Below, in pieces: positions 16,135 through 42,313 of a DNA stretch of 44,696 bases; the first letter of the stretch is position 1, and every line of letters starts with the position of its first letter. The notes beneath the pieces were generated by a model. That model worked only from the letters and a program-made list of their open reading frames with translations. It did not search any database and was not told the origin of the DNA. This DNA comes from Bdellovibrionales bacterium (lineage in GTDB: Bacteria > Bdellovibrionota > Bdellovibrionia > Bdellovibrionales > UBA1609). Location: the NCBI GenBank assembly GCA_019695175.1, contig JAIBAM010000023.1, positions 1 through 44,696 of the forward strand, read 5' to 3'. The position numbers were made by a program, and so were the translations under genes.

Positions 16135-16779
16135 ATGCAAAAATTGACCACAAATTTTATAGTTTTAAGTTGCTTAGTGGCGGGCTGGGCGATCCTCCCA
16201 GAAATGGTGATGGCTTTTGGAACTGTTGCCAAATATGGGAGCCCTTACAATTGCTCCTGTAAAAGCCGTCGTGGCACACCTATCGCCTGTGAAACTGGGC
16301 GCGAAAGTCATGAAGTGGCTGATGAAGGGATGCCTAATTTTTCCTTTGCAGCCTACGTTAAAAAGAATGATTCTCCTTCTCCTTCTCCTTCTCCTTCTCC
16401 TTCTCCTTCTCCTTCTCCTTCTCCTTCTCCTTCTCCTTCTCCTTCTCCTTCAATGGTTTCGTTTCCTAAAAACGCCTATGTTTATGTAGAAAATAATTAT
16501 GTTGATGAATGTATTATCCCCAGTGGCTCTAGCTTAAGTCTAATTTTATCGAAAGAAGGAAACCCCTCTTGTGAGCAGCATAATGGTAATTGGAATTGTA
16601 ATATCAATTTTACACTTCCAGAAGAAAGTAAAACAGGCACTGTTTATCCATGCAATGATAAAGGGGAGAGGGTTGGGATGTTCAGTCCCTATATACCAGT
16701 TTGTCGAGAGGGAACCGTTGTCATTGAGTTGCCTGACCCAGAAAAATTTCAAGGGATATTTGGTACAGTAGTCCCTTGA
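16135..16779 (+). CDS. Secreted two-domain protein joined by a (Ser-Pro)13 hinge
   Basis: The 214-residue product begins with a signal peptide (IVLSCLVAGWAILPEMVMA). An N-terminal domain of about 50 residues follows, with three Cys (NCSCKS, IACET). Residues 80-106 are thirteen perfect Ser-Pro dipeptides plus a Ser. A C-terminal domain of about 105 residues has five Cys (DECIIP, PSCEQH, WNCNIN, YPCND, PVCREG) and beta-strand periodicity. The hinge is encoded by a pure 6-bp tandem repeat. No family is recognised. A rigid Pro-rich spacer between two small disulfide domains suggests an extracellular or cell-wall-spanning protein. GGGG lies about 6 nt before the ATG. It converges on a zinc-ribbon gene pair 41 nt downstream. 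Confidence 0.75.
   Translation: MQKLTTNFIVLSCLVAGWAILPEMVMAFGTVAKYGSPYNCSCKSRRGTPIACETGRESHEVADEGMPNFSFAAYVKKNDSPSPSPSPSPSPSPSPSPSPSPSPSPSMVSFPKNAYVYVENNYVDECIIPSGSSLSLILSKEGNPSCEQHNGNWNCNINFTLPEESKTGTVYPCNDKGERVGMFSPYIPVCREGTVVIELPDPEKFQGIFGTVVP
16371..16450 (+). repeat. Hexanucleotide tandem repeat (TTCTCC, about 13 copies)
   Basis: Eighty bases of uninterrupted TTCTCC units encode the Ser-Pro hinge of the surrounding gene. Because the unit is 6 bp, gain or loss of units changes hinge length by two residues without shifting frame. The tract is all pyrimidine on the coding strand, a sequence type prone to slippage and to triplex formation. Confidence 0.97.
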
Positions 16780-34455: not shown

Positions 34456-35793
34456 ATGAGACAAACTAGCAGTGATGAAAAGCCTCGTCCTAAAAATAAA
34501 CGGAGAAAATATTTATCCCGATTGTTTTGGAATTTAATGGACTGGCTTCCAAGTGGTTTAAGACAACGGTGGGTCAGGGGTATTTTTTCTTTAGATTATA
34601 AACTTCCATCTAACATTGTTTTTAAGCGCGCTGAAAGCTTTGATGAATTTGAACAAGCTTTTAAAGTGATTTATGAAAGTTACAGAGATTTGGGGCTGAC
34701 AAAAGAAAATATTAATAAAATTCGTGTGACTAAATATAATGCTTTACCTTCAACTACACTTTTAATTGTTAAAGAGGGAAATGAAGTCATTGCGACCATG
34801 TCGGTTGTCGTAGATTCCCAATTAGGATTACCTATTGAGGAATTGTGGGACATAACGGAATTACGTAAGAAAGGGACACGACTAGCTGAGGTTTCCACAT
34901 TAACTATAAAAAAAGAGTGGCGATCTCAAAGAGGAAAATTGCTTTTTCCTCTTTGTAAGTACATGTGGGAATATAGCTATAGATTTTTAGGCGTCGACAT
35001 ATTGATTGCAGTCACCCACCCTCGTGTGGCCCATTTTTATACTGATATTCTTTTGTTCAAGGAAATTAAAAGCCAGGAAAAATTAGTTAAAAAATATGCC
35101 TCGGTTGAAGGGGCTTTAGCAAAAGCGCAGTATCTTCAATTAGGTGAAAATACTTATAATGAATGGAAACGAATTTACCAAAACACTCCCCATGAAAAAA
35201 ATATTTATCATTTCTTTGTAAAAACAAATTTTGTTAATTTTAAGTTTCCAGAGAAGAATAATTTTATTTATGGAATGAGCTTCATGACACCAGCACAATT
35301 GGAGCATTTTTTTCTCAATCAATGTAATGTTTTAGATGATCTTAGTGAAAGCGACCGTCTTGCTTTAGCCAATCTTTATTTTCTTGATAAATATCGCTCT
35401 GTATTAGGAATTAAAAGTACCACCCCTGGTGTGTTCGACCGCAAACATCCTAGATTTGATGTTTTAGGTCATGTGCGATTATTTCATGAGGAAACCGGTT
35501 CTTTATTAAGAGGATCCATGTTGGAGGCCTCGCGGGAAGGATTAAAAGTCAGACTTCTGAATGATCTACCTTTATTGAAAAGAGGGGACGTGGTTAAGCT
35601 AAATGTGGAATTATCTCCTACGACAAAAGTACAACTTCAGACTGAAGTTAAATGGGTGCATGACCAGTACTCCCGTTTGGGTCTTAAAATTATTGTGCCT
35701 TTACCATTCGAGTGGAGGGAATTTATTGATTATCTAGAATCTCAGCTTTACGAAAAAGCCAGCTCGACAAAAGTCGCAAATCGTATCGTTTGA
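34456..35793 (+). CDS. N-acyltransferase-like (FeeM/GNAT type) protein with C-terminal PilZ domain
   Basis: The 445-residue protein has two parts. Residues 50-250 look like a GNAT-fold N-acyltransferase of the FeeM/autoinducer-synthase type (FKVIYESYRDLGLTKENI; LAEVSTLTIKKEWRSQRGKL; DILIAVTHPRVAHFYTDI). Residues 325-435 are a PilZ domain. It has the RxxxR motif as Arg329-Arg333 (RKHPR) and, in the second motif, Glu357-Ala-Ser-Arg-Glu-Gly362 where Asp or Asn is usual before x-Ser-x-x-Gly. PilZ domains bind cyclic di-GMP, so acyl transfer may be controlled by that messenger. The N-terminal 30 residues are strongly basic. The ThiF-like gene starts 46 nt later. The ribosome site is weak. Confidence 0.8.
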   Translation: MRQTSSDEKPRPKNKRRKYLSRLFWNLMDWLPSGLRQRWVRGIFSLDYKLPSNIVFKRAESFDEFEQAFKVIYESYRDLGLTKENINKIRVTKYNALPSTTLLIVKEGNEVIATMSVVVDSQLGLPIEELWDITELRKKGTRLAEVSTLTIKKEWRSQRGKLLFPLCKYMWEYSYRFLGVDILIAVTHPRVAHFYTDILLFKEIKSQEKLVKKYASVEGALAKAQYLQLGENTYNEWKRIYQNTPHEKNIYHFFVKTNFVNFKFPEKNNFIYGMSFMTPAQLEHFFLNQCNVLDDLSESDRLALANLYFLDKYRSVLGIKSTTPGVFDRKHPRFDVLGHVRLFHEETGSLLRGSMLEASREGLKVRLLNDLPLLKRGDVVKLNVELSPTTKVQLQTEVKWVHDQYSRLGLKIIVPLPFEWREFIDYLESQLYEKASSTKVANRIV

Positions 35794-35839
35794 TTGCAGA
35801 TGCTTTTTCTTCTGTACCAGCTCCTGTCACAATAAACGT

Positions 35840-36712
35840 ATGGAGAAATGGGATTATAATAAAGCTTTTTGTAGAAATCTAGGGTTGATCAGCCCAGCAG
35901 AGCAAGAAAAAATTCGAAGGACAAGAATTGCTATCGCGGGTATGGGCGGGGTGGGTGGTGTGCATTTGATCACACTTCTTCGTCAAGGTTTTGAAAAATT
36001 TAATTTAGCCGATTTTGATACTTTTGATTGGTCCAATTTCAATCGTCAATATGGTGCAGAAACCTCATCTGTTGGTAAAAACAAGTTGGATTGGATGGCC
36101 CAAGTTGCAAAACGCATCAATCCAAATGTTGATTTAAATTTATTTGCTGAACCTATTGATGAAAAAAATGCCGCACCTTTTTTAAAAGACTGTGAAGTTT
36201 TGGTGGATGGAATAGACGCTTTTGCTGTAGCAGCTCGACGTGCTGTCTTTATGTATGCTCATCAAAATAATAAATATGTAGTCACTGCAGCCCCCATGGG
36301 GTTCAGCACCTCCTGGTTGACTTTTAGTCCTCAAGGAATGGATTTCGATTCCTATTTTGGCATAAGAGATCATCAAACCCAAGAAGAAATGTTTATTCGG
36401 TTTATGTTGGGCCTTTCCCCTAGAGCGCTTCATTTCCCTTATATGGATCTTAGCTATGTGAACTTTAAAGAACATCGAGGTCCTTCGAGCATGATTGCCT
36501 GTCAATTGTGTTCCGGGGTTTTATCAGCTGAAGTGGTAAAAATTGTTACGGGTAAAGGTCAAGTTCGGGTGGCTCCCTATTATCAACAATTTGATGCATT
36601 TAGAAATTGTTTAAAAAAGGGAAGAATGATTGGCGGATCAATAAATCCACTGTTTAAGTTAAAATTATTCATTTCAAAAATAAAACTTAAACAAATTTTA
36701 TCAAAAGATTAA
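35840..36712 (+). CDS. ThiF/MoeB/E1-like adenylyltransferase
   Basis: The 290-residue protein has the Rossmann glycine motif AGMGGVGG (residues 34-40), the acidic strand LADFDTFDWSNFNRQ with Asp58, Asp60 and Arg69, a Lys in SVGKNKLDW, and VDGIDAFAV. These are the ATP and substrate sites of ThiF/MoeB/E1 enzymes, which adenylate a C-terminal carboxylate. The usual pair of zinc-binding CxxC motifs is not present; a single CxxC (IACQLCSGV) lies in the helix before the C-terminus. No ubiquitin-like or ThiS partner is encoded nearby, so the carboxylate substrate is unknown. It lies between the acyltransferase-PilZ gene and a nitroreductase-like gene only 3 nt downstream. Confidence 0.9.
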   Translation: MEKWDYNKAFCRNLGLISPAEQEKIRRTRIAIAGMGGVGGVHLITLLRQGFEKFNLADFDTFDWSNFNRQYGAETSSVGKNKLDWMAQVAKRINPNVDLNLFAEPIDEKNAAPFLKDCEVLVDGIDAFAVAARRAVFMYAHQNNKYVVTAAPMGFSTSWLTFSPQGMDFDSYFGIRDHQTQEEMFIRFMLGLSPRALHFPYMDLSYVNFKEHRGPSSMIACQLCSGVLSAEVVKIVTGKGQVRVAPYYQQFDAFRNCLKKGRMIGGSINPLFKLKLFISKIKLKQILSKD

Positions 36713-36715
36713 TTT

Positions 36716-37789
36716 ATGAAAATCAATTCTCAAGTAATCAAGCAATTAGTTGGAAAATCGCTCTTTTACCCGTCGGGGGATAATGCTCAACCTTTTAGGT
36801 TTTCTATTCAGAATCAAGAAAGAGTGGTGGTCTCTTATCTTGAGGAAAAAGCTCGACACCCGCTCAATGAACAATGCATTGCAAGTTGGATGGCGCTAGG
36901 TCATTTTATAGAAATTTTAAGTCTCCATGCACAGAGTGTAGGCCTTGATTTAGAAATAAAAATCAAAGAACAAAAACAAGACTCTGCTTGGGTGGAAATT
37001 TTTTTTAAAGAAGGAGTTCAGCCCTTAAATAAGCAAAGAAAATTTATACATGAACATTTAGATTTGCGAACTACAGATCGGAGGCCCTATCTTAAGAAGT
37101 CGCAACTCAGTCAAGTCGACATTGAAGAGCTAAAAAAACTCATTGAGGTGTCTGTTGAGCTGGAGTTTTTAAATCCTGTTGTTCAGGATTGGGTCGTACA
37201 TCTTTTGAAGGTCGAAGAGCTTGCTTGGAAATGGTCCGAACTGGCTTTGTCCACATTTAAATGGGTCACGCTCAAACCCATGAAAGAGGGTATGCCGTGG
37301 AAAAATTTAAACGTACCATTTTGGATGGTTCCTTCTTTATTTGCGTTTAAGAAGTTCCCTGCTTTTTATAGGTTGTCATCAGCCTTTGGCGCCACAAAAA
37401 TCAATAAACAAATTTTGGCTCACCAACTCTCCCATACTTTGGCCCTGGGATTTTGGAAAATTAAAAGTCCTCAACCTCAAAATTATATTGCCCTGGGTCG
37501 TTCCAATTTAAGGGTGTGGACTTGGTTGAACGCCCATGGTTTTGGATATCAACCTATGACTTTAGGGGTTTTGCCGAGTTATATTTTAGGTCAAGGGTAT
37601 ATCTTAGAGTCATGGCCCAGCCCATTGGTAACATTGTTAAAAGAGACTAAAAAACTTTTAGGGCGATGGATTGAAAATCCTCAACAGGTGATTTGGAGTT
37701 TTCGAACAGGTGGAATAGATCATCCTCTTCCACAAAATCAAAGAACCCTCCGTCTTTTTGAAGATGAAGTTATTGAAATTTTAGATTAA
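36716..37789 (+). CDS. Nitroreductase-like flavoprotein
   Basis: The 357-residue protein has an N-terminal motif SLFYPSGDNAQPFRFSIQ, like the SxxNxQPWxF of FMN-dependent nitroreductases, and LDLRTTDRRPYLKKS, like their RRSxRxF region. The middle is divergent and longer than the usual 200 residues. The C-terminal GWxxQ-type segment appears as LNAHGFGYQPMTLGVLPSYI. It should bind FMN and carry out a redox or dehydrogenation step. It starts 3 nt after the ThiF-like stop, so coupling is likely. ThiF and nitroreductase domains also occur together, sometimes fused, in Rv1355c-like proteins, which supports a joint reaction here. The substrate is unknown. A long 8-bp repeat follows the gene. Confidence 0.78.
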   Translation: MKINSQVIKQLVGKSLFYPSGDNAQPFRFSIQNQERVVVSYLEEKARHPLNEQCIASWMALGHFIEILSLHAQSVGLDLEIKIKEQKQDSAWVEIFFKEGVQPLNKQRKFIHEHLDLRTTDRRPYLKKSQLSQVDIEELKKLIEVSVELEFLNPVVQDWVVHLLKVEELAWKWSELALSTFKWVTLKPMKEGMPWKNLNVPFWMVPSLFAFKKFPAFYRLSSAFGATKINKQILAHQLSHTLALGFWKIKSPQPQNYIALGRSNLRVWTWLNAHGFGYQPMTLGVLPSYILGQGYILESWPSPLVTLLKETKKLLGRWIENPQQVIWSFRTGGIDHPLPQNQRTLRLFEDEVIEILD

Positions 37790-37829: not shown

Positions 37830-37909
37830 TTTTCTACTTTTCTACTTTTCTACTTTTCTACTTTTCTACTTTTCTACTTTTCTACTTTTCTACTTTTCTA
37901 CTTTTCTAC
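37830..37909. repeat. Tandem repeat (TTTTCTAC), ten perfect copies
   Basis: Eighty bases consist of exactly ten copies of an 8-bp unit, between the convergent ends of the nitroreductase-like gene and the LiaF-like gene. On the minus strand the unit is GTAGAAAA, and its TAG closes the LiaF-like frame inside the last unit. Copy-number changes would leave both proteins intact. The array puts TAG stops in all three minus-strand frames every 24 nt. Confidence 0.97.
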
Positions 37910-38446
37910 TACGGAAAGGGTGCCAAAAACAATGTTCGCATCTACATTAAGGGTAAATTGGGAATTTTCCAAGGCCAAGTCGGAATTGTAAACACTACTC
38001 CCAAATCTGCTTAAATTACTATTGGGAAGATTTGTGTCTGCAAAAACAGCATTCGTATGAAGTCGTAGGGGAGTGTCTTTTTTTATGATCAAACGGGTTT
38101 CCCCAAATACAGTGTTCATGGAAATAGTCGTGCTCCCTTTTGAAAGATCTAGATCACGCAAATCCAGCTCCGAATCTCCAAAAACAGTGTTGTACTCTTT
38201 GTTTTCCTTACCTCTATGGAGGGGAGAGTCCATATTTAATTTAAATTGGGAACTACCAAAAAGGGCCTCGTTTGTTGTTGTCACTTTTTTAAGGTGGAAT
38301 CCAAAAGAGTTAAATAGAATTTGTATACCAAAATAGAGCAAACTTAGAGCAAAAAGTATTCTGAAAATGGGAATGGCAAACCCAAACAGTGAATTTAGAA
38401 AAAAAATAATCCCAGAACCAATTAAAATAAAACCTAAATAATACAT
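37898..38446 (-). CDS. LiaF-like membrane protein (cell-envelope stress type)
   Basis: The frame is open to a TTG at 38494, but GGGGAGG lies 8 nt before ATG 38446, giving 182 residues. Two membrane helices come first (YYLGFILIGSGIIFFLNSLFG; IFRILFALSLLYFGIQILF). About 120 residues of short beta repeats follow, with recurring VFGDSELDL / VFGETRLII / VFADTNL / VFGTLSVV turns, the pattern of LiaF/DUF2154-type C-terminal beta-helix domains. LiaF-like proteins inhibit envelope-stress kinases in Firmicutes; the role here is unknown. The stop codon lies in the 8-bp repeat array. The gene is downstream of rpoD in the same direction, with hairpins between them. Confidence 0.75.
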   Translation of the reverse strand: MYYLGFILIGSGIIFFLNSLFGFAIPIFRILFALSLLYFGIQILFNSFGFHLKKVTTTNEALFGSSQFKLNMDSPLHRGKENKEYNTVFGDSELDLRDLDLSKGSTTISMNTVFGETRLIIKKDTPLRLHTNAVFADTNLPNSNLSRFGSSVYNSDLALENSQFTLNVDANIVFGTLSVVEK

Positions 38447-38574: not shown

Positions 38575-40401
38575 TTATTCCATGAAGGATTTTAATTTTC
38601 CTGATCGACTGGGGTGGCGAAGTTTGCGTAGGGCTTTAGCTTCAATTTGACGAATCCTTTCCCGAGTGACATTGAAGTCTTGTCCAACTTCTTCCAAGGT
38701 GTGATCACTTTCTTCTCCTATGCCAAATCTCATGCGCAGAACTTTTTCTTCCCGAGCTGTAAGAGTCGATAGAACTCTTCGGGTTTGTTCCGCGAGATTC
38801 AGATTTACGATGGCTTCAGAAGGATTGATTACTTTTTTATCTTCAATAAAGTCACCTAAATGTGAATCCTCTTCTTCACCTACAGGAGTTTCAAGACTAA
38901 TAGGCTCCTTTGCAATTTTTAGAACCTTCCTGACTTTATCTACAGGCATGTCCATTTTTACGGCAATTTCTTCAGGAATAGGCTCACGACCCAATTCTTG
39001 GACAAGGTAGCGTGAAGTGCGCATTAGCTTGTTAATGGTTTCAATCATATGAACAGGAATGCGAATGGTTCGTGCTTGGTCCGCAATAGCTCTGGTAATT
39101 GCTTGCCGAATCCACCAGGTGGCATAGGTAGAAAACTTATAGCCACGACGGTACTCAAATTTATCCACGGCCTTCATTAGGCCGATATTTCCCTCTTGAA
39201 TTAAATCTAAAAATTGCAGGCCTCGATTGGTATATTTTTTGGCAATGGAGACAACAAGACGAAGATTGGCAACAACCAACTCACTTTTTGCTTCATCCGC
39301 CTCGCGCTCACCCTTCCAGATAGCTGTATAAGTGTCTCGGATCCATTCAAACTTCATTTCGGTTTCTTGATGCAGACGATCCACACGCTCCTGCGCATCT
39401 TTAGCTAAAAGAAAGTGGGATCTGAATTGACTAAAGTTGAGTCCAGTCTCTTTCTGGGCTTTTTGGGCTTCACTATCATTGCTTTCAATGGCTCTGTATC
39501 GAGACTGAAGGTGAACGATATCCTTGGAGAATGTTTTGGTGACAGCAGTTTTGACACGTTTTCTGAGCTCTTGCATTCTGCCCACAAGGTTTTTGAACTT
39601 AATTACAATACGATTAATTGTTTTTCGATTGAAATTAATACTTTCAAAATTAGCCATGAGCTCCTTGTTAATTTCAGTCAGCTGAGCACTCGCAGCGAGC
39701 GATTCCTTTGAATTAAGTTGGGCTTGGTCTCGCAGCGTTGCAAATAAGTCCTTGGCTTTTTCCTGGTAGTTTTTAACATGTCCGATAAGGTCATTGATCT
39801 TTTCAATGTATTCTTGCTCATCGTATTGGGTTTCTTCGTCTTCCAGACCGCGAAAGATTGATTTTACTTTAATGCGACCCTCAGCCAAACGTTGTCCTAA
39901 TTGGATAATTTCATTAGTGCCAATCGGTGACATAAGAATTGCGCGCACAATTTCCCGTTCTCCAGCCTCGATCCGACGGGCAATTTCCACTTCCCCTTCA
40001 CGGGTTAGTAAAGAAACACTTCCCATTTTACGTAAATACACCCGGACAGGGTCATTGCTTTTGGTGTCCTCACTGGCCTCGTTTTCTTCTTCTTCGTCTT
40101 TTTCTTCTGCGTCTGGATCGGAGAGATAGAACTGATCGTCCTCACCCTCTTTCTTATTTTCTTGGGAGTCTGAAATAATTACACCATTGACTTCCAAGGC
40201 CTGCATGAGGGTGTCAAGGACACTTGGGGCGATAATTTCAGCGGGGAGCAGTTCATTAATTTCTTCAATTGTTAAAGCTTCTTTTTCCTTAGAAATCTTT
40301 ATAAATCTTTGAATTTCCTCACGAATCATCTCTTCCTGTTGAGTCAAAGAAAGCTCTTTTAAGGATGAATTTTGTTTATTTTCTGAAGTGTCTTTAGTCA
40401 T
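38575..40401 (-). CDS. rpoD: RNA polymerase primary sigma factor (sigma70)
   Basis: The open frame starts at a TTG (40437), but CGGAG is 9 nt before ATG 40401, giving 608 residues. Region 1.1 is present ([20 protein letters not shown]), then an acidic linker ([20 protein letters not shown]) and region 1.2 ([20 protein letters not shown]). A non-conserved insert precedes region 2 ([20 protein letters not shown]), which recognises the -10 element. Region 4 has the helix-turn-helix [20 protein letters not shown] for the -35 element. This makes it the housekeeping sigma factor. Its ATG overlaps the end of dnaG by 8 nt, within the classic rpsU-dnaG-rpoD arrangement. Confidence 0.98.
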
Positions 40402-42313
40402 TGTTTTGTTCTCCGTTATTAGCTTTTTTAGACTCAAGGTTTTTGTTTAAAAGATGTCGATCTCTATGTATATTCATAATTCGTTCCAAATCTTCCTGTT
40501 GATCTAAAGAATTTTGGCCACGCAAGTTACTTCTTAAAGTTTTAGCCTGTAAACGCAAACGAGCCTCTTTTACTTTCTTAATACAGTCGGTTATTAACTT
40601 GGTTGCATCAGGCTCCTTGATCTCTAAAAGGGGAGGCTTTAGATGGAGGCATAAAGGTTCCTGGGGGTGGACTTCGCCGATCAGGTCAGATCCTAACCTA
40701 TCAAATTTACTAAAGTTTTGTCCAAGTAATTGCTGAGCCCGTAAGAACACTTGTTTGACTCCTTCATGGCTGAGTTGGTCTAGGACATCTTCATTGAGGA
40801 TCCTATGGAAGTACTCTTCTTTCACTAAAGCCATATTAATTAGATAAAGCTCTGATGTTGGAGCTCCCATTAAACTGACTTTTGTGACCACTGTTTCTTT
40901 TGGATTCTGCGGGAGCTCAGGGGCTGTTTTAGTTACGATAGGGGTCATTTGTGGACTATTTTTGGCACCGCTCAAATCAGTAGCTATACATTGTTTTACC
41001 CAAGCTGGAGTTTCACCAATTTTTTCTGCAAGTTCAGAAACGTAGAAATGTTGTAATCTTTTGTCAGCGCAAGCTAACAAAATTGGTGAAATTTTATCCA
41101 GTAAATTTATTTTTTCTGCTGATTGCCCCCGAAAACCCAAAAGAAACTGGTCCAGTACAAGTAAAAACAACTCTGGTGCAGAACGCAACTGTTTTTCTAA
41201 ATTTTGCTTACCATACTTTCTTAAAAAATCATCCGGATCTAATTTTTCCGGCAGACGAAGACCCTTTGGAATTAAATTTTGTGATAACAAAAGGGGAAGG
41301 CTTCGTTCCATAGCTGTTTGACCGGCCTCATCTCCATCAAATACGACAAAAATGTTTTTAGTGTATCTTTTTAAAAGGCGTGCATGTTCTTGGGTCAAAG
41401 CCGTTCCCAGCGTGGCCACCACTGCTTTAAACCCAGATTGAAACAGCTGAAGAAAATCCATATAACCCTCAACCACGATGACTCGATCCTCTTGGCGGAT
41501 GTGTTTTGCAGACTCATTAAGGCCATAAAGAGTTTTGCCCTTATGGAAGACTTCCGACTCTGGGCTATTGAGATATTTGGGTTGGGCATTGGGGTCAAAT
41601 ACACGACCGCCAAAGCCGACAATTTTACCTGTGGGCAAAATAATTGGAAACATCAGTCGGTCACGGAAAACATCGTAATAGTCTTCTGGGGTACTTTTGG
41701 AGTGAGAGTTATTGTTGGATTTACGACTTCGAATCAAACCTAAGGCCTCGGCTGAAGAATGCGGTACAGAGAGTTTTAATAAATGGTGAGTCAGGGCTTC
41801 CCAATCATTGGGGCTATAGCCAATATGAAAGCGTGTTGTTGTTTCCTCATTTAATCCGCGTTCTTTGAGATAATTGACCACATGCGGAGGTTTTTTTTGT
41901 ATTTGAGTTGTGAAAAATTCCAAGGCCAGTTGATTGATATGGTAGAGGGTGTGTTTGGAGTCCTGGGTTGAATCTGCTGACCCTTTATTTTTTGTAGAAA
42001 AAGAGTTTAAAGGATCTTTTTTGGGCAAAGGGATTCCGGCCCTTTGGGCCAAGAACTCAACGGCTTCCGGAAAATTCAAGCCTTGAGCTGACTCCAAGAA
42101 ATGAAAAATATTCCCGGCCTTTTTACAACCAAAGCAATGGTACATTTGTTTATCTTCGTTCACTGAAAAGCTGGGTGTTTTTTCCATATGGAAAGGACAA
42201 AGACCCACAAAGCGACTTCCACCAGATCGACGAAGTTGAGTGTGGGACATCACAATATCAACAATATTGTTAGCCTCTCGAACTTTATCAATAAATGAAG
42301 AAGGAAATATCAT
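40394..42313 (-). CDS. dnaG: DNA primase
   Basis: The 639-residue primase synthesises RNA primers at the replication fork. The N-terminal CHC2 zinc domain has Cys39, His42, Cys60 and Cys63 ([23 protein letters not shown]). The catalytic core starts near residue 120, and the Toprim domain has [11 protein letters not shown] and VFDGDEAGQ with the metal-binding acids. The C-terminal part, which binds the DnaB helicase, is present but divergent. AAGG lies 5 nt before the ATG. It overlaps rpoD by 8 nt and follows yqeY after 146 nt, part of the macromolecular synthesis block. Confidence 0.97.

Follow-up and report, generated by a model that had tools for sequence, protein, structure and literature searches.

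Organisation of the locus

The window analysed here is a stretch of 44,696 nucleotides from a Bdellovibrionales bacterium (contig JAIBAM010000023.1). It contains three consecutive open reading frames (ORFs), all on the forward strand: gene 1 (34456-35793, 445 amino acids), gene 2 (35840-36712, 290 amino acids) and gene 3 (36716-37789, 357 amino acids). Gaps of 46 and 3 nucleotides separate genes 1 and 2 and genes 2 and 3, which agrees with an earlier note made from the letters of this DNA. By Pfam and a structural model, gene 1 encodes an N-acyl amino acid synthase (NAS) with a C-terminal PilZ domain, an architecture referred to here as NAS-PilZ. Gene 2 encodes a ThiF/E1-like adenylating enzyme of the same type as TyzB and the N-terminal half of OxzB, and is proposed to be an ATP-dependent cyclase. 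Gene 3 encodes an Acg-like flavin-dependent oxidase (FDO) of the same type as TyzC and the C-terminal half of OxzB, and is proposed to be a desaturase. We consider it probable that this operon encodes a pathway whose product is an acyl-oxazolone, or else a dehydro-N-acyl amino acid close to it, and that its committed enzyme is gated by cyclic di-GMP (c-di-GMP). The evidence comes from the domains and folds of the proteins, from the conservation of catalytic and ligand-signature residues and from conserved gene linkage.

The acyltransferase domain of gene 1

Protein 1 matches the Pfam FeeM acyltransferase family at residues 67-208 (34654..35079), with a hmmscan score of 112.7 bits against a cut-off of 27 (1.8e-32). 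In its AlphaFold-type model (predicted local distance difference test, pLDDT, 78.3; predicted template modelling score, pTM, 0.79) the best structural match is FeeM itself (2G0B, Z 18.9 over 181 residues), and the next matches are acyl-homoserine lactone (AHL) synthases (BjaI, 5W8C, Z 15.8). The N-terminal part is thus an acyltransferase by both profile and fold, and protein 1 has the FeeM/AHL-synthase fold of the NAS enzymes in acyl-oxazolone clusters. A phmmer search with protein 1 alone matched no solved structure; the profile of the NAS-PilZ family did.

We aligned 34 NAS-PilZ relatives, which are 19-37% identical to the window protein, with a mean column identity of 28%. At an E-value of 0.01 or better, Pfam finds FeeM in 34/34 of these and PilZ in 22/34. 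In the profile alignment Glu145 (34888..34890) lies opposite FeeM's catalytic Glu. It is one of five invariant residues, with A59, Y76, T114 and R333; M1, P98, G124, P126, S359, G362 and W420 are nearly invariant. In Nas354, a characterised NAS-PilZ protein, mutation has shown the catalytic Glu to be essential (PMC4897644). A conserved linker at residues 237-315 (35164..35400), helical in the model, joins the FeeM and PilZ domains, and its profile matches 36 frames in the relatives' regions, the window counted.

The PilZ domain of gene 1

The PilZ domain occupies residues 329-417 (35440..35706) and scores 32.9 bits in hmmscan (cut-off 22.5, 8.3e-8). The earlier note's fusion of an N-acyltransferase-like domain to PilZ is therefore borne out by two Pfam matches above cut-off and by the FeeM-like model. 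A first scan of the window's own genome for the PilZ family did not list this domain, though hmmscan places it above the cut-off, and this is a limit of that scan. The C-terminal part of the model resembles c-di-GMP-bound PilZ domains, namely those of YcgR (5Y6G, Z 12.0) and Alg44 (4RT1, Z 11.6), and Foldseek also matched the PilZ domain of BcsA (4P00).

Two motifs form the c-di-GMP signature of PilZ domains. The RxxxR motif is present in the window copy as RKHPR (residues 329-333) and is closed by R333; the [D/N]xSxxG motif corresponds to EASREG (residues 357-362). RxxxR is found in 26/34 relatives and [DN]xSxxG in 26/34, with ExSxxG in four more, and the window copy is itself such an E variant. 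S359 and G362 are kept in at least 90% of the 34 relatives and R333 in all. Conservation in the PilZ part is highest at these three signature residues and at W420. From the signature residues and the PilZ fold we infer that the domain binds c-di-GMP; the enzyme assignments are strong, and control of gene 1 by c-di-GMP is suggested rather than established by these data. The genome that holds the window encodes four GGDEF proteins and so has the means to make c-di-GMP; together with several further PilZ proteins they attest the presence of the messenger system.

The ThiF-type enzyme and the oxidase

Protein 2 matches Pfam ThiF with 156.6 bits (7.8e-46) and is a formal member of NCBIfam NF006077 (PRK08223; 382.7 bits, cut-off 266). 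Against the equivalog models for ThiF and MoeB it falls far short of the cut-offs, with 77.5 bits against 275 for TIGR02356, 54.8 against 377 for TIGR02355 and 71.3 against 266 for PRK05690. Residues R12, R69, K82, D123 and D126 are invariant and fit the Arg, Lys and Asp with which MoeB and ThiF bind ATP. Among ORFs of at least 30 amino acids, no separate forward-strand gene for a ThiS or ubiquitin-like partner lies among the three, which upholds the earlier description of a ThiF-type enzyme lacking such a partner. The ThiF-type cyclases of acyl-oxazolone clusters are adjacent or fused to an oxidase, and only 3 nucleotides lie between gene 2 and gene 3.

Protein 3 had been described as a divergent nitroreductase (NTR), and indeed its Pfam Nitroreductase score of 13.9 bits lies under the cut-off. 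Over residues 2-283 it aligns with two families of fusion proteins, PRK14851 (4e-19) and Rv1355c (7.6e-13), in each case with their C-terminal part. The AlphaFold model (pLDDT 82.9, pTM 0.87) matches Acg (2YMV) with Z 27.6 over 298 residues, the next entry having 14.5; this is the Acg-like monomeric flavin-dependent oxidase type of acyl-oxazolone clusters. The NCBIfam model of Rv1355c, which is TrzS, is matched by protein 3 and also by protein 2 (1.3e-13), and Acg is the closest structure to the oxidase domain of TrzS according to its authors (PMC12856293).

Relation to known systems

For Mycobacterium tuberculosis there is biochemical proof that TyzA performs an acylation, TyzB an ATP-dependent cyclisation and TyzC an O2-dependent desaturation, giving C12:0-tyrazolone (PMC10404671). 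TrzA and TrzS form an equivalent pathway with tryptophan, in which TrzS, a ThiF-FDO fusion, carries out the last two steps (PMC12856293). The operon resembles TyzABC, TrzAS and OxzAB of Pseudoalteromonas rubra in its FeeM/AHL-synthase-fold acyltransferase, ThiF-type cyclase, Acg-like oxidase and clustering. It differs in that those acyltransferases are described without PilZ, whereas gene 1 is a NAS-PilZ fusion. The Stieleria, Thalassotalea and Massilia clusters also hold NAS (NasY), ThiF and NTR genes together, and in Thalassotalea and Massilia these genes overlap or are less than 10 bp apart (PMC12479983). No PilZ is described for them, their products are dehydro-N-acyl tyrosines, and the Stieleria clusters carry methyltransferases (PMC12479983).

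NAS-PilZ proteins were reported in 2016, when the metagenomic Nas343 and Nas354 were found to make N-acyltyrosine; in Escherichia coli Nas354 does so in dependence on its catalytic Glu, and the authors propose regulation by c-di-GMP (PMC4897644). Protein 1 is of this type: an FeeM-like N-terminus, a linker and a C-terminal PilZ domain in one chain of about 400 amino acids, with the catalytic Glu conserved. Nas343 and Nas354 were reported outside a biosynthetic operon (PMC4897644), whereas genes for a ThiF protein and a flavin oxidase come directly after gene 1. NasP, as cited in PMC4897644, is likewise a NAS under second-messenger control, but its messenger is cyclic AMP and its activation is experimental, while for gene 1 c-di-GMP is the predicted messenger.

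PMC4897644 is the sole paper that we found on NAS with PilZ, and we found none that brings together ThiF, nitroreductase, PilZ and N-acyl amino acids, in a literature coverage outside which most subscription journals lie. The earlier note knew of no system uniting these enzymes with PilZ. Both the pathway of acyltransferase, ThiF and NTR and the NAS-PilZ fusion are already published; what appears to be undescribed, and does recur, is the union of the acyl-oxazolone pathway and NAS-PilZ in one operon.

Conservation of the neighbourhood

We scanned 58 related genomes and counted a strong FeeM match as linked when a ThiF or NTR match of the oxazolone type lay no more than 5 kb away. Outside the window 15 of 38 strong FeeM genes are linked, where about 0.5 would be expected from rounded genome sizes; with the window counted, the figures are 16/39 and 0.55. 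Linkage of the three gene types in related genomes is far above chance, and the neighbourhood on which the earlier note had staked its operon reading does recur. Among 60 regions read, NAS-PilZ, ThiF and NTR occur together, intact or partly broken, in the genomes of five relatives: G005 (L066), G009 (L079, with the NAS-PilZ frame truncated where the contig stops), G036 (L092, with the frame interrupted), G045 (L099) and G057 (L103, with ThiF and NTR fused and PilZ weak). Gene orientation differs among these loci, and the set is scattered across the phylum.

A scan of GTDB contigs with an alignment of closer ThiF relatives gave at least 80 loci, or 81 with the window. Among the matches listed, these are mostly from Pseudomonadota and Planctomycetota, with Nitrospirota, Thermodesulfobacteriota and Bdellovibrionota also represented. 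In the matches listed plus the window, an NTR gene lies within 4 kb or is fused in 66/81 loci, an FeeM-like acyltransferase lies within 4 kb in 38/81, and NAS-PilZ is present in 6/81. The six are the window, Halobacteriovoraceae (L129), Bdellovibrio (L169), Paucibacter (L147), Parvibaculum (L157) and Rhodocyclales (L188). Pfam PilZ is above cut-off in L129 and L188 and just below it in L169; in L147 and L157 Pfam does not list PilZ, which is detected by the family profile made here. With complete sets in other Bdellovibrionota as well as in Paucibacter, Parvibaculum and a Rhodocyclales genome, the combination is unique neither to this genome nor to its phylum.

GGDEF-like ORFs are few around the 80 listed loci of other phyla, about four being plausible, which does not support c-di-GMP genes as general neighbours of oxazolone loci. 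The connection with c-di-GMP is drawn from the PilZ fusion and from the locus published for M. tuberculosis, in which trzAS is flanked by the c-di-GMP turnover genes rv1354c and rv1357c (PMC12856293).

On a tree of FeeM sequences NAS-PilZ proteins fall within one part (39 of 61 rows, support 100/97), which also holds single-domain NAS from Planctomycetota and betaproteobacteria. The NAS-PilZ label needs seven changes on this tree, at least two of them by well-supported branches. The bootstrap had not settled, and the finer branching is to be read with caution. Three Pseudomonadota NAS-PilZ proteins form one tight group (100/99) nested among those of Bdellovibrionota, which suggests that they were transferred.

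Several other architectures and expansions were seen. In the same order, on a separate branch of the FeeM tree, are proteins of 462-506 amino acids with the reverse arrangement, PilZ in the N-terminal half and an FeeM-like C-terminal half (L109:4149-5582, L111:5770-7212, L112:4840-6357 and L113:211-1596). G007 has 11 FeeM matches (regions L069-L078) and G018 has 14 ThiF matches, some of them fragments (regions L082-L089); both carry several separate NAS-PilZ loci. In the window's own genome there is another FeeM-like gene, more distant and lacking PilZ (G000:C47:14270-14680, 35.7 bits). The frame L064, of 643 amino acids, is no new fusion: its assembly is fragmented, and the frame is a NAS gene that has been disrupted.

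Surroundings of the operon

The operon adjoins the housekeeping gene rpoD (38575-40437) and an ORF at 40394-42313 that we take to be a DnaG-like primase. It does not lie on an evident mobile element, and the GC content of 35-40% is near that of the flanks. Promoter-like and terminator-like sites are no more frequent than in shuffled sequence. Directly after gene 3 a perfect 8-bp tandem repeat, TTTTCTAC, runs for 10.1 copies (37830-37910). A convergent LiaF-like ORF (38494-37898) has its stop codon inside this array, and a change in copy number could alter the end of the LiaF-like protein. A perfect 6-bp tandem repeat, TTCTCC, is present elsewhere in the window in 13.5 copies (16371-16451).

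A proposed pathway and its alternatives

All three proteins agree with the pathway enzymes by profile, and proteins 1 and 3 also by model; together with the linkage this supports the reading, already made in the earlier note, of an operon for an N-acyl amino acid derivative. By analogy with characterised relatives, the gene 1 enzyme would take a fatty acyl group from acyl carrier protein or coenzyme A and attach it to the amino nitrogen of what is probably an aromatic amino acid, for example tyrosine. The gene 2 enzyme would use ATP to adenylate the carboxylate of the N-acyl amino acid, whereupon the amide oxygen would close a five-membered oxazolone ring, and the gene 3 enzyme, with flavin mononucleotide and O2, would introduce an alpha-beta double bond. 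The PilZ domain probably binds c-di-GMP and alters the enzyme that carries it, so that lipid output would follow c-di-GMP; with the proposed sensor on the first, committed enzyme, c-di-GMP could set the flux.

Several observations weigh against this proposal. The producers of stieleriacine, kyonggic acid and thalassotalic acid have ThiF and NTR together with NAS, and no oxazolone was seen in them (PMC12479983), so the end product here may be an open dehydro acid. On this alternative reading, which we hold tentatively, the product would be an N-acyl dehydro amino acid with an open chain, like stieleriacine or thalassotalic acid, and either the ThiF step would be transient or the ring would reopen. 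However, OxzAB, TyzABC and TrzAS, all with ThiF, yield oxazolones (PMC10404671, PMC12856293).

Other observations concern the PilZ domain. The window copy keeps S and G of the second motif but has E in place of D/N, RxxxR is incomplete in 8/34 relatives, and SxxG is absent from four rows of the alignment. PilZ domains that bind no ligand are known. We found no biochemistry on protein 1 and no c-di-GMP binding results for any NAS-PilZ protein, and Nas354 is active in E. coli with no deliberate supply of c-di-GMP (PMC4897644). The pathway might then be the same and PilZ a module for folding, dimerisation or docking, for example to acyl carrier protein or the ThiF enzyme. We regard this as rather unlikely: the conserved residues are mainly those of the ligand signature, and the closest folds are c-di-GMP-bound. 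Of the c-di-GMP tuning put forward in the earlier note, the signature conserved across the family stands, and the ExSxxG of the window copy tells against it.

About half of the relatives' NAS-PilZ genes have no ThiF or NTR in the region, many of them on short contigs, and Nas354 alone gives N-acyltyrosine (PMC4897644). The genes could on this account be neighbours without a common pathway, with gene 1 making N-acyltyrosine by itself and ThiF and NTR acting on something else. This is improbable, because the observed linkage is retained despite varying orientation, the reactions fit in series and genes 2 and 3 are so closely spaced. Finally, protein 2 lies within the ThiF superfamily, but that it activates a sulfur carrier or ubiquitin-like protein for cofactor synthesis, as ThiF and MoeB do, is rejected as most improbable on the equivalog scores set against the NF006077 score, no small carrier protein lying beside gene 2 and the protein having a single CxxC pair, where ThiF and MoeB have two, for zinc.

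Biological implications

What acyl-oxazolones do is described as unresolved (PMC12856293), and the 2016 study did not settle what PilZ does on N-acyl amino acid synthases (PMC4897644). The proposed c-di-GMP-gated oxazolone operon joins both questions. If c-di-GMP gates the first step, oxazolones would be an output of c-di-GMP signalling, and the proximity of trzAS to c-di-GMP turnover genes in M. tuberculosis would gain meaning. In Bdellovibrio c-di-GMP controls predation versus free growth (PMC3271064). As a more speculative extension, which we hold only tentatively, c-di-GMP might act in Bdellovibrionota as a direct switch for making an acyl-oxazolone lipid that diffuses away. A messenger internal to the cell would then be converted into a lipid released as a signal or as a weapon, and lineage-specific expansions would give one cell several pathways gated in this manner. 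With its first step gated by c-di-GMP, an oxazolone lipid built from fatty acids and an aromatic amino acid may be made on command.

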